Part shown: one piece after another, positions 59,007 to 64,000 of the stretch | How positions within the stretch are numbered: position 1 is the stretch's first letter | Layout: each line of letters starts with the position of its first letter | Assembly: GCA_013334965.1 (NCBI GenBank) | Contig: JAAXWO010000002.1 | Coordinates: 124,001-188,000, forward strand | Origin: Chlorobiaceae bacterium | GTDB lineage: Bacteria; Bacteroidota; Chlorobiia; Chlorobiales; Chlorobiaceae | DNA length: 64,000 nt | Reading direction: 5' to 3' | Made by a program: the position numbers and the translations under genes | Notes under the pieces: model-generated | Seen by the model: the letters and a program-made list of their open reading frames with translations, nothing else | The model's database searches: none | What the model was told of the DNA's origin: nothing

Positions 59007-59382
59007 TTCTTCGGAGTTCAACCACAGCCGCAAATTCAAAACATTTGTTTGGCCATCCGCGTTATCGCTCGATACAACCTGCCCCTCCTCCTGAACCTTC
59101 TTTAACGGAAGGCGGGTTTTCCAACACGCCATTAACGGCCAAATGAACATGGCTCAATGCATTGCCGGGGGCGCCAAGCCCCAGCTTGGCATCTTTATGG
59201 ATAACCAACAGGAGACTGAATCAACTCCACCAGACAAAAATCCTACCCTTTCATTGCTTAATCCGTTGTTCGCGTTTGAATTTCCGAGCCGGGACCTGAC
59301 GTTCCCAGGGTTTTGGCGTTCCTGATTTATCTATTGAGACAGTCTCCTCCGTTATTCCCCAGGAACTCACCCCATAGACTCA
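59007..59382. other. Gene-poor start of the accessory region
   Basis: No gene is supported here beyond the start of the duplicated repeat at 59251. A GC-rich inverted motif GCGCCAAGCCCCAGCTTGGC lies around 59170-59190. From here to the right edge the gene density falls sharply. Confidence 0.4.
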
Positions 59383-59512
59383 ATGATAAGTCTGACCTGG
59401 AAATGGGTGTACATGGGTGTTTTTTTGGTTCAGATCTTCGAGTTCTACCAAAAAAAAGCAGCCTACGACAAAAGTCAGCAGACCGTTATGAGTTTATTTA
59501 ATAAAGAGCGCT
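59251..59512 (+). repeat. Degenerate direct repeat, copy A
   Basis: About 262 bases align by eye with 60050-60312. Shared blocks run from TCATTGCTTAATCCG through CCCAGGG-TTTGGCGTTCCTG and AGGAACTC-CCCAT to CCTACGACAAAA and AATAAAGAGCG. A fragment near 25660-25730 resembles the middle part. The copies differ by small indels. Confidence 0.8.
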
Positions 59513-59999: not shown

Positions 60000-60049
60000 A
60001 GCTGGGTTTGGGAACCATGAAGAACTGGGCAAACTTAACCCGAAAACAT

Positions 60050-60312
60050 TCATTGCTTAATCCGGAGCCTGCATTTGAATTGCCGAGCTGGGGCTCGGCT
60101 TTCCCAGGGCTTTGGCGTTCCTGATTCTTCTTTCGAGATAGCCTCATCCGTTCGTCCTTAGGAACTCGCCCCATCGTCTCCATGATCAGTATCTGACCTG
60201 GAATTGGGTGTTAATGGGTGTGTTATTGGATCAGATCTTCCAGCTTTCCAACAAAAAGCGACCTACGACAAAATTCAGCAGGCTGTCATAAGTGTACTTA
60301 ATAAAGAGCGTC
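60050..60312 (+). repeat. Degenerate direct repeat, copy B
   Basis: The partner of 59251-59512. Identity is interrupted by single-base indels: an AT insertion near 60190 and a one-base loss near 60255. These break the reading frame seen in copy A. Confidence 0.8.
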
Positions 60313-60401: not shown

Positions 60402-60740
60402 CCCATAATCACAGCAGGCCGGGAACCCCCGGCCTGCATCTTCTTCCCGCGACCACAGCGGAAGCCATGGCGCTCACCGCTCCGTCCGCAAGCAAAAAAT
60501 CACGCCAACAACATCGGAAAACTTCAAATTCCTGAGTACCTTTTCTTCATATACTCATCAAAAACAGGCTCGGACAAGTGTTCTTATGCTGATCAGCATA
60601 AAACGCAGAAATAAATCGCAACGCAGCAGTTAATTTATTTCCAAGTAAAAGGTTGATGGCTTTTTGAATTTTGTATGTATTGCGTCTTATGTGGGTTGTA
60701 ATTCAAAAATCCGCAGCTTATGCGGATCAATCTATTTATT
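60402..60740. other. AT-rich intergenic region before the cassette array
   Basis: No gene is seen. Base composition becomes AT-rich from about 60530. A short stem TCCGCA/TGCGGA at about 60709-60726 lies just before the first GTTAGGC core. Confidence 0.45.
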
Positions 60741-60747
60741 GTTAGGC
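60741..60747 (+). other. Left cassette boundary core (GTTAGGC)
   Basis: GTTAGGC matches the integron core consensus GTTRRRY and lies four bases before the first cassette ATG. Upstream sequence does not show a full attC and could be an attI or a worn attC. Confidence 0.55.
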
Positions 60748-60750
60748 ATC

Positions 60751-61353
60751 ATGAGTGATACTGCGCACGCTATCTGGCCGCCTTACGAAATTTTCTACAT
60801 CAGTAGCATGCAATTCAATTGTCAGTCTGCCGTGCGCTCCGTGGCTCGCGTGTCTCGGGTGTTTGAAAAGTTGCCGCCGCAGCCGACACACGACGATATT
60901 GCCGCGCTACCCACGCAAAGCATACTTAACGAGCTTCAAAATATTGTTGCCCAAGGTGCTGCGCTGTCTCGCTACTTCTGGCCAGTCCGAAAGGGCCACG
61001 AGAATCGGGCGGACCATTTGAAACGCACTCTCTCCGTAGATGAAGCCAGTCCGCTCTACGACCGGAATCTAAGAAACGCAATTGAACACTTCGACGAAAG
61101 GCTTGATAAATACCTTGGTGCCGGGCTTGTCGGTTACATATTTCCTGAGTTCGTTGGCCCTCGTCCCGCCGAGGACGGAGTTGCGGGGCACTTCTTTCGT
61201 GCCTACTTCGTCGATGTTGGCGTCTTCCGGCTTCTTGATGAAGAGTATCCCGTGGAGCCTTTAGTCCAGGAGATTCTTCGCGTCAATGACTTGCTCGAAA
61301 CCATGTCGTCTCAGGGCGGACGCCTTAGCACGTGTGTTAGCCATGATGCATAA
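60751..61353 (+). CDS. Integron cassette protein 1 (HEPN-like motif)
   Basis: A 200-residue protein not recognised by name. It is mostly helical by composition. RNAIEHF near residues 108-114 fits the RNxxxH active motif of HEPN ribonuclease-fold proteins, followed by an amphipathic helix DERLDKYL. Its TAA stop lies inside the inverse core of the following attC, the usual cassette arrangement. HEPN proteins often act in toxin-antitoxin or abortive systems, but no antitoxin gene of the usual kind adjoins it, so the function is inferred weakly. Confidence 0.6.
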   Translation: MSDTAHAIWPPYEIFYISSMQFNCQSAVRSVARVSRVFEKLPPQPTHDDIAALPTQSILNELQNIVAQGAALSRYFWPVRKGHENRADHLKRTLSVDEASPLYDRNLRNAIEHFDERLDKYLGAGLVGYIFPEFVGPRPAEDGVAGHFFRAYFVDVGVFRLLDEEYPVEPLVQEILRVNDLLETMSSQGGRLSTCVSHDA

Positions 61354-61416
61354 CCTTTCAGTCGAGCGGACCTGCTGCGCGAAAAGCCGCGCAGGCCGCT
61401 CACTTTCACGTTAGAC
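61348..61416 (+). other. attC-like recombination site 1
   Basis: The inverse core GCATAAC (61348-61354) and core GTTAGAC (61410-61416) bracket a strong hairpin. GAGCGG-A-CCTGC-TG-CGCG pairs with CGCGCAGGCCGCTC, leaving extrahelical bases on one arm only, as in folded bottom-strand attC sites. Confidence 0.85.
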
Positions 61417-61430
61417 CTAAAGGGGAAGGT

Positions 61431-62153
61431 ATGTGTGATCTTGTATTTTCGATGCAGGAATTGCTAAAAATTGTGCCGGGGATCGCAATATTTCCACTTT
61501 CGTTCTATCTAGCATGGAAGAAAATCGGGGAGAGTGTTTCGTGCTCCGTAACCATATCGACGAGCAGGATTAGTGCGGGAAGAGTAAGTGCAGTCGTTGT
61601 AACAAATCACAAAGACAAGCCCATAACAATATTTGAGATTCAGGCGGTATCAGATAACGACATAACGTTTGTTGTCGAAAAATTCGATCTCCCATTGGTC
61701 ATAAAGGCCTTGGAGACCGTCACCATTGATGCAAAGCCATACTCCGCGCTTCTTGTTGACGGGAACAAGTGGGAGCCAGATTTGATTGGCCAACAGAAGA
61801 TAGATATCTATCTGGTAACGCCGAGGAAGACTATCAAATGCAAAATGCTCTCCCATCCAACGCTAGATAAGATCCCCGAATTTGAGAAGTATCGGCAGGC
61901 AATAAAAGTCAATAAAACTTACAACGGCATTGCGTACAACGAGAATGCTAAGTATGCAATTACGTACAAGGATGCTGAAGGGGTTAAAACGGCAATCGTT
62001 GATATCTTTGGATTCATAAATGGCGAATGGAGATTTCGCTACAACATGATTCCCGCAGAGCACATGCTCTCGGTGGATGGGGTTAGAGAGTTCCTCAGGG
62101 TGTCCCGTGCCGCAGAGGCATTGCAGATATATGGCGTGGATCAGCTGCTTTAG
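61431..62153 (+). CDS. Integron cassette protein 2 (membrane-anchored, unknown)
   Basis: A 240-residue protein with an N-terminal hydrophobic anchor (IVPGIAIFPLSFYLAW, about residues 14-30) and a strand-rich soluble part. AAGGGGAAGGT precedes the ATG. Codon use is more AT-rich than in the rest of the window, consistent with recent transfer. The TAG stop abuts the next inverse core. No family is recognised. Confidence 0.65.
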   Translation: MCDLVFSMQELLKIVPGIAIFPLSFYLAWKKIGESVSCSVTISTSRISAGRVSAVVVTNHKDKPITIFEIQAVSDNDITFVVEKFDLPLVIKALETVTIDAKPYSALLVDGNKWEPDLIGQQKIDIYLVTPRKTIKCKMLSHPTLDKIPEFEKYRQAIKVNKTYNGIAYNENAKYAITYKDAEGVKTAIVDIFGFINGEWRFRYNMIPAEHMLSVDGVREFLRVSRAAEALQIYGVDQLL

Positions 62154-62217
62154 GTCTAACAATTCGCTGCAGGCGCGACGGCCCTAACGGGCCGCGGCCT
62201 GAGCTTGGGCGTTATGC
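62154..62217 (+). other. attC-like recombination site 2
   Basis: The inverse core GTCTAAC (62154-62160, an exact RYYYAAC) and core GTTATGC (62211-62217) enclose a GC-rich hairpin. CAGGC...CGGCCC pairs with GGGCCG...GCCTG around TAAC. The beginning TCTAACAATTCG is the classical attC start. Confidence 0.85.
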
Positions 62218-62295
62218 TGACACACGCTTCACGTGAGCTGACCTGCAATGGGAGCACGACTTGAATATTCGCAGCCTCAACACTACTGGATACTT

Positions 62296-62925
62296 ATGCA
62301 ACTCACGCTTGTCGGAACAGTTCACGCGGAGACGGGCTTAGCGACCAGCAATGAGTTGCTAAAAATTCTTGAGCGCCTGAAGCCTGAAGTCATCTTTGCC
62401 GAGATCCCGCCGAGCTACATTGAGCAATATTGTGATGGTTCACACGGAACACTTGAAGCGGTAGCTGTGGCTCGATATCAAGAGGGCCACCAAATCGCAG
62501 TTATACCCGTCGATCTAGAGAAGCCTGAGGATGCGTTTTTCTCATATGCTCAGGAGTTGTTTGATAAAGTTGAGCGTACGAGTCACTACTATCGCCGACT
62601 GATGGACCAGCACAACCTCGACACTCGTACAGGCGGTTTCCCTTACTTGAACAGCGATCGCTGTATCCAAGCGTGGGTTGATATCCATGGCGAAGTTCAA
62701 GCCACACTGGACTGGATTGGCAATCCGCTGCTGCACAAGATTTACAGCAGATGGTGCATGCAGAACGAACTCCGCGACACAGGAATGGTGGCGAAGGTTG
62801 TTGACTACGCTGATCGCAATGGTCAGGTACATGGCGTGTTTCTCTTTGGTGCGGCGCACATGAAATTCATCCTCGAGAAGACACGAATGCAATTTGGTGA
62901 CGATGTATCTTTAAAACTTGGCTGA
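62296..62925 (+). CDS. Integron cassette protein 3 (TraB/PrgY-like domain)
   Basis: About 209 residues starting MQLTLVGTVHAETGLATSNE. The N-terminal LVGTVH, KPEVIFAEIPPS, IPVDLEKPED and the C-terminal VFLFGAAHMKFIL resemble the TraB/PrgY/GumN group of metal-dependent peptidase-like proteins, with the GTxH and C-terminal GxxH motifs. The remainder is unrecognised. An ATG at 62248 in frame would add 16 residues and is closer to the attC core, so the start is uncertain. Confidence 0.55.
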   Translation: MQLTLVGTVHAETGLATSNELLKILERLKPEVIFAEIPPSYIEQYCDGSHGTLEAVAVARYQEGHQIAVIPVDLEKPEDAFFSYAQELFDKVERTSHYYRRLMDQHNLDTRTGGFPYLNSDRCIQAWVDIHGEVQATLDWIGNPLLHKIYSRWCMQNELRDTGMVAKVVDYADRNGQVHGVFLFGAAHMKFILEKTRMQFGDDVSLKLG

Positions 62926-63665: not shown

Positions 63666-63947
63666 TCAGCTGACCATACTGCAAAAATTGGGGTTCACTA
63701 CCCAGCAATTGTTGCCTACCGAGAAACAGGTCGAGCCTGAGAACGCCCAACAGGTTCCGCCAACCACCTCGGAGAGCTGGCAATCGAAATCCTCCTGCTC
63801 ATCCAGATCCTCCTGGGTAAAAAGGAAACCTGCGTTTCTGATTGCGGTCATGCGCTCTTCCGGCTCTTCAATGGCCAGGATGCGTTCGTGAAACGCCTGA
63901 TCCGTTTTCATCCTTTCGATGAATGCCTTTGCATGTTCAACTGACAT
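63666..63947 (-). CDS. Nif11-type RiPP precursor peptide with Gly-Gly leader and four-Cys core
   Basis: A 93-residue peptide. The start ATG at 63947 is set by CGGAGG five bases upstream. Residues 1-60 form a Nif11-like leader: MSVEHAKAFIERMKTDQAFH, then EEPEERMTAIRNAGFLFTQE. The leader ends with LSEVVGG, a double-glycine processing site (Gly63-Gly64). The 29-residue core (65-93) has Cys66, Cys74, Cys81 and Cys89, evenly spaced by 6-7 residues, plus two Trp, three Phe and seven Ser/Thr. Such leaders are typical of lanthipeptide-like (prochlorosin) and related RiPPs. Whether this core is lanthionine-bridged or carries another modification is unknown, since no modification enzyme lies within the window. 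Confidence 0.8.
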   Translation of the reverse strand: MSVEHAKAFIERMKTDQAFHERILAIEEPEERMTAIRNAGFLFTQEDLDEQEDFDCQLSEVVGGTCWAFSGSTCFSVGNNCWVVNPNFCSMVS

Positions 63948-64000
63948 GGGAACCTCCGGGGTATGGTTTGCCAATCGTTGGCGATTGACAGTTCAAAGCT

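Follow-up and report, generated by a model that had tools for sequence, protein, structure and literature searches.

What does the short open reading frame near the right-hand end of this window (a 64,000-nucleotide stretch of a Chlorobiaceae contig) encode, and which genes would mature and export its product? An earlier note, made from the letters of the window, had read it as the precursor of an undescribed natural product, of the Nif11 class of RiPPs, in a green sulfur bacterium. The genome comprises 2.48 Mb in 20 contigs and is 99.7% complete, and the window's contig runs 41 kb past the window's end.

The precursor gene and its peptide

The frame lies on the minus strand, from an ATG at 63945-63947 to a stop at 63666-63668, and yields a peptide with the leader MSVEHAKAFIERMKTDQAFHERILAIEEPEERMTAIRNAGFLFTQEDLDEQEDFDCQLSEVVGG and the core TCWAFSGSTCFSVGNNCWVVNPNFCSMVS (Table 1). 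Translation of the plus strand over the same interval is interrupted by stops, and that strand is noncoding there. In profile searches PF07862 matched residues 1-48 (E=2.1e-13, 50.7 bits, cut-off 23.8) and TIGR03798 matched residues 1-59 (E=7.2e-18, 64.6 bits, cut-off 32.3). These two matches, together with a Gly-Gly followed by a short core, confirm that 63666-63947 encodes a predicted Nif11-class RiPP precursor. The leader class given in the earlier note thus holds, and the EVVGG end, the 29-residue core and its cysteines at 66, 74, 81 and 89 (C-x7-C-x6-C-x7-C) are exactly as described there; a fifth cysteine, Cys56, lies in the leader and was missing from that list.

The probability of such even spacing is 0.006 for random placement of four cysteines in 29 residues. 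A C-x-x-[F/V]-[S/G/N] unit starts at every core cysteine (shuffle P 8.5e-4, for a motif picked post hoc, after inspecting the core), Trp or Phe follows three of the four, and Phe/Tyr precedes the last. Asp and Glu are absent from the core, so that it offers no freyrasin-type Cys-x3-Asp/Glu pattern, and the window's core has no Tyr and hence no spliceotide Xaa-Tyr-Gly. An AlphaFold model built on a two-row alignment (mean pLDDT 55.7) shows leader residues 3-62 as helical and the core at low confidence. A resemblance of the core to an MDH beta-subunit was rejected, the match (E=0.1) being below cut-off.

Table 1. The predicted precursor gene, its parts and its partner genes. Positions are in window numbering, which for the partner genes equals the position in locus L003 + 59999.
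Feature	Position	Strand	Basis or remark
Nif11-class RiPP precursor gene (predicted), stop included	63666..63947	minus	93 aa; translation and profile matches
GGAGG, probable ribosome-binding site	63953..63957	minus	read from the sequence; 5 bases before the ATG
Leader, residues 1-64	63756..63947	minus	Nif11 domain by profiles; helices in the model; ends in LSEVVGG
Gly63-Gly64, predicted C39 peptidase cleavage site	63756..63761	minus	follows the Nif11 leader; kept in the relative
Core, residues 65-93, 29 aa	63669..63755	minus	TCWAFSGSTCFSVGNNCWVVNPNFCSMVS; four Cys at spacing 8/7/8
Radical-SAM/SPASM maturase, 483 aa	64201-65652 (L003:4202-5653)	minus	PF04055, TIGR04085
HlyD of NHLM exporter	65868-66980	plus	over equivalog cut-off
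C39-peptidase ABC of NHLM exporter	67089-69335	plus	over equivalog cut-off
Second ABC of NHLM exporter	69332-71572	plus	over equivalog cut-off
dCache-like membrane protein, 317 aa	71597-72550 (L003:11598-12551)	plus	weak dCache match

Partner genes beyond the window

Rightward extension of the sequence, which the earlier note had proposed as the way to find RiPP genes, reached a radical-SAM maturase and a C39 ABC exporter directly beyond the window. The maturase gene shares the strand of the precursor gene and lies upstream of it, and the exporter genes diverge from the maturase gene; the radical-SAM/SPASM protein is the sole modifying enzyme seen at the locus. The exporter trio (HlyD to second ABC, L003:5869-11573, plus strand) is complete, with TIGR03794, TIGR03796 and TIGR03797 each over the curated equivalog cut-off. 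Read from its sequence, the C39 domain retains the Q-x4-EC motif, the His and the Asp-Pro that are expected of an active C39 peptidase. In nine clusters (the window's and eight others) the second ABC is followed by the dCache-like membrane protein, in which no output domain was found and which may have a part in immunity or sensing.

Further right, HlyD and cNMP-binding ABC genes (L003:14543-18543) adjoin an outer-membrane-factor-like gene, and a repetitive, adhesin-like open frame of at least 4966 aa (L112:4099-18999) also lies beside an outer-membrane-factor-like gene. We set the HlyD and cNMP-ABC genes aside as cluster members, since, given a giant repetitive protein and an outer-membrane-factor-like one as neighbours, they more likely serve type I secretion of an adhesin. 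A HipAB-like pair further right was likewise considered and set aside.

The genome holds a second Nif11 gene (L004:9015-9278, equal to G000:C13:104014-104277; 87 aa), beside an alpha/beta-hydrolase-like gene. Its product is conserved in 19 of the 21 genomes of the genus, has the fixed C-terminus GHCCSSGLWH or GRCCGGGLWH and no hypervariable core, and looks like a conserved, non-variable Nif11 protein.

A relative with the same core

Across some 85,000 species genomes we found one locus with a relative of the precursor, JAAXXK010000040.1, from a Chlorobiaceae MAG whose GTDB genus is that of the window's genome; the viral contigs searched held no precursor relative. A search with the core in the 86 genomes of the family returned only these same two. 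Other family genomes gave weak core matches (E 1e-3 to 1), which were rejected as chance: we examined the eight best (L098-L105), and these fall in unrelated coding sequence, most of them within or against frames of greater length, and not in short Nif11 genes.

The two precursors are 75% identical. All five cysteines and the Gly-Gly are kept in this sole homologue, and GGAGG also precedes its ATG. Between the cores of the two species, one of them represented by a MAG, 14 nucleotide differences lead to 3 amino-acid changes, where about 10 would be expected without selection; none of 20,000 simulations gave a number as low. The core has dN 0.045 and dS 1.33, the leader dN 0.17 and dS 1.21, and third positions account for 40 of the 61 differences over the whole gene. 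The precursor is under strong purifying selection, which is strongest in the core.

The enzyme and exporter genes form a block of 8.4 kb that is 82% identical between the two genomes, and in both the maturase adjoins the precursor on the same strand. The Nif11 profiles, the enzyme and the C39 exporter, the conservation of the Gly-Gly and cysteines and the homologue in a Chlorobiaceae MAG all bear out the earlier view of an undescribed Nif11 precursor of a green sulfur bacterium.

The maturase and its family in Chlorobiaceae

We set the start of the maturase at the Met of MRPWSRYN, where the alignments of its relatives begin. The protein has the CxxxCxxC motif (PF04055, 8e-19) and a SPASM domain (TIGR04085, 52.2 bits, cut-off 27). 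Seven SPASM cysteines make up the ligand set for two auxiliary clusters; these seven and the three of the SAM cluster are all invariant in an alignment of 26 homologues. With its CxxxCxxC motif and full SPASM cysteine set the enzyme is a predicted member of the radical-SAM/SPASM peptide maturase superfamily.

None of the curated maturase models reached its cut-off with the window's maturase. TIGR04463 ('vs_C_rich') gave 226.5 bits (cut-off 525), TIGR04334 (Clo7bot) 214.2 (600), NF038107 (CefB, Cys-every-fifth) 172.1 (600), the PapB ranthipeptide model 105.6 (340), TIGR04064 (nif11-like peptide maturase) 89.1 (518.7) and the SCIFF model 81.3 (425). The chemistry is therefore not transferable from any of them. 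The best of these matches, all well under cut-off, are mostly makers of Cys-rich peptides, and the nearest solved structure by sequence is 5wgg, which we take to be CteB, a thioether-forming ranthipeptide synthase.

At E below 1e-120 the maturase subfamily is present in 23 of the 86 family genomes, and among 395 genomes of the phylum, a limited sample, no further family has it; plasmids carry only distant relatives of at most 32% identity, including Clo7bot and TIGR04463 maturases. The enzyme belongs to a subfamily outside all curated models, confined in this phylum sample to Chlorobiaceae.

In most of its clusters this maturase is accompanied by one or more Nif11 peptides, whose cores are unrelated. 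Cysteine occurs in 25 of the 28 parsed cores beside related maturases and makes up 9.3% of their residues; Nif11 cores in stretches without this maturase are also Cys-rich (19/24), and cysteine content alone is therefore not specific to the maturase. The pattern C-[WFY]-x-hydrophobic-[GSN] stands out in the window's core alone (post hoc, P about 1e-3), and in shuffles of the cores beside the maturase a general Cys-neighbour motif was not robust once the window's core was left out. Arrays of Nif11 precursors in other Chlorobiaceae (L065, L066, L067, L076, L081, L088, L089, L090, L092, L093) combine near-identical leaders with unrelated cores, at up to 20 Nif11 matches per genome.

Signs of transfer and neighbouring mobile-looking DNA

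A tree of the maturases groups the window's enzyme with that of the relative MAG (G007; 99% SH-aLRT). The enzyme of another genome of the window's genus (G013) pairs with that of a genome from a different genus (G024; 98% SH-aLRT), which suggests transfer between genera. The flanks of the 8.4-kb block are unrelated in the two genomes, with a catalase-like gene on the peptide side in the relative and small ORFs in the window's genome. The block and the tree agree with the transfer-prone region that had been supposed from the window.

Two attC-like hairpins, at 61348-61416 (ends GCATAAC/GTTAGAC) and 62154-62217 (ends GTCTAAC/GTTATGC), flank the ORF at 61431-62153. Together with this ORF and those at 60664-61353 and 62248-62925 they look like a small integron gene-cassette array; a search of the genome found no integron integrase over cut-off. 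A direct repeat of about 260 bp (59250-59510 and 60049-60310, about 80% identical, 800 bp apart) is also present.

Proposed pathway and alternative explanations

The leader class, the Gly-Gly, selection on the core, a maturase with all its cluster ligands, a full exporter and the co-occurrence of these in two genomes can be read from the sequences. We propose that the Nif11 leader of the 93-aa peptide would dock on the radical-SAM/SPASM enzyme, which, using SAM and two auxiliary iron-sulfur clusters, would abstract hydrogen near each core cysteine. A bond between the cysteine sulfur and carbon might follow, so that each C-x-x-[FV]-[SGN] unit could hold one thioether ring, at most four in all. 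The NHLM ABC transporter would next cleave after Gly63-Gly64 with its C39 domain, and the HlyD/ABC pair would export the 29-residue product. Exported peptides of this kind usually serve in interference with, or signalling to, close relatives, and this would be the most likely role here.

That the locus makes a radical-SAM-modified, exported RiPP seems to us very probable. Reasonably probable is the whole picture of a one-precursor cluster whose thioether-bridged peptide (ranthi-/sactipeptide-like) is cut after Gly64 and exported. By analogy, thioethers as the main modification are a slightly better than even guess, and the leading one because Cys-rich peptides are the substrates of the maturase's nearest relatives among curated families and solved structures; the core lacks an acidic acceptor, however, unlike freyrasin-type Cys-x3-Asp. 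The main rival is that the maturase forms C-C or C-N links at aromatic residues (triceptide/cyclophane-like), for which W67-A68-F69, W82-V83-V84 and F75-S76-V77 are candidate sites, the cysteines staying thiols or disulfides. The aromatic neighbours of the core cysteines speak for such links, as do an aromatic residue at Cys +1 in 10 of 41 cases across cores (4.8 expected, the window's core counted) and weak matches of the maturase to the cyclophane formers YhhB (61.7 bits, cut-off 445), AmcB (57.4, cut-off 425) and FxsB (53.9, cut-off 370). These scores are nevertheless far under those for maturases of Cys-rich peptides, and the enrichment fades without the window's core (P about 0.1). The three-residue cyclophane pattern usually has a polar last residue, whereas the third residue in the candidate patterns is F or V; we consider aromatic cross-links unlikely.

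Quite improbable, in our judgement, is that the peptide leaves the cell with essentially no modification, or with a different radical-SAM change such as epimerisation, and that its four cysteines form two disulfides. The even number of core cysteines would suit this, and a C39 exporter alone is enough for double-glycine peptides, but a maturase with intact ligands accompanies the peptide in both genomes, and the family is anaerobic, though disulfides could arise outside the cell. Modification by Ser/Thr dehydration, at which the earlier note had hinted, or by Cys/Ser/Thr cyclodehydration would draw on the precedent of the prochlorosins, lanthipeptides guided by Nif11 leaders, and on some other Chlorobiaceae clusters, where the maturase is accompanied by a YcaO protein of 758 aa (L075, E=1.2e-94) or, in L074, by a ThcOx-type oxidase. 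However, a search of the entire genome, which is 99.7% complete, matched neither LANC_like PF05147, the mark of lanthipeptides, nor YcaO PF02624, that of azole/thioamide peptides (TOMM); readings of the peptide as a lanthipeptide or azole therefore fall, the dehydration hint with them, and we give them hardly any credence. It is just as hard to believe that the Nif11 gene is an orphan or in decay and has no function: repeats and cassette-like DNA adjoin and the core occurs in two genomes only, but dN/dS is far below 1, the core is the most conserved part, the ribosome-binding site is kept and the operon is intact.

A bolder version of cysteine cross-linking, which we regard as doubtful, is that the maturases of Chlorobiaceae form a new subfamily of relaxed specificity that serves many hypervariable Nif11 cores, and so parallel the prochlorosin system with radical-SAM chemistry. 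In the window's species the enzyme might install four undescribed cross-links from cysteine to unactivated hydrophobic residues three positions on (C-x-x-[FV]).

Comparison with known systems

The architecture of Nif11 precursor, radical-SAM maturase and NHLM exporter is known. The core, found in two species, and the maturase subfamily outside the curated models, seen here only in Chlorobiaceae, appear to be new; a literature search found no paper pairing Nif11 and radical SAM with Chlorobium. With one 93-aa peptide and one enzyme, this is a compact and directly testable natural-product cluster of a green sulfur bacterium, and the hypervariable peptides that accompany the maturase subfamily form a natural library for studying how one radical-SAM family tolerates differing cores.

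Nif11-class precursors such as the prochlorosins and their relatives (PMC2887384, PMC10783134) share the helical Nif11 leader, the Gly-Gly, the short core and a nearby C39 NHLM exporter. The window's cluster differs in its use of a radical-SAM/SPASM enzyme, not LanM or YcaO, and in having just one precursor, whose four-Cys core we did not find elsewhere. In Chlorobium luteolum, Haft and colleagues reported NHLP precursors next to cyclodehydratase genes (PMC2887384), a system from which both leader family and enzyme differ here. TIGR04064 systems also combine a radical-SAM/SPASM enzyme with a Nif11-leader peptide, but at 89 bits against the 519 needed the window's maturase is of a different subfamily.

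TIGR04463, Clo7bot (TIGR04334) and CefB (NF038107) are the curated families closest to the window's maturase, with matches along almost its whole length, and their names tie them to Cys-rich peptides; the maturase scores under half of their cut-offs, and leaders and hosts differ. The PapB and CteB ranthipeptide synthases (reviewed in PMC11002830) are likewise SPASM maturases of Cys-rich peptides, for which S-C thioether chemistry like that proposed here applies, whereas the window's maturase falls below both model cut-offs, its core is without acidic acceptors and its leader is of another class. The NHLM export system (TIGR03794/03796/03797) is present with all three components over cut-off, and the window's cluster adds to it the conserved dCache-like membrane protein after the second ABC.
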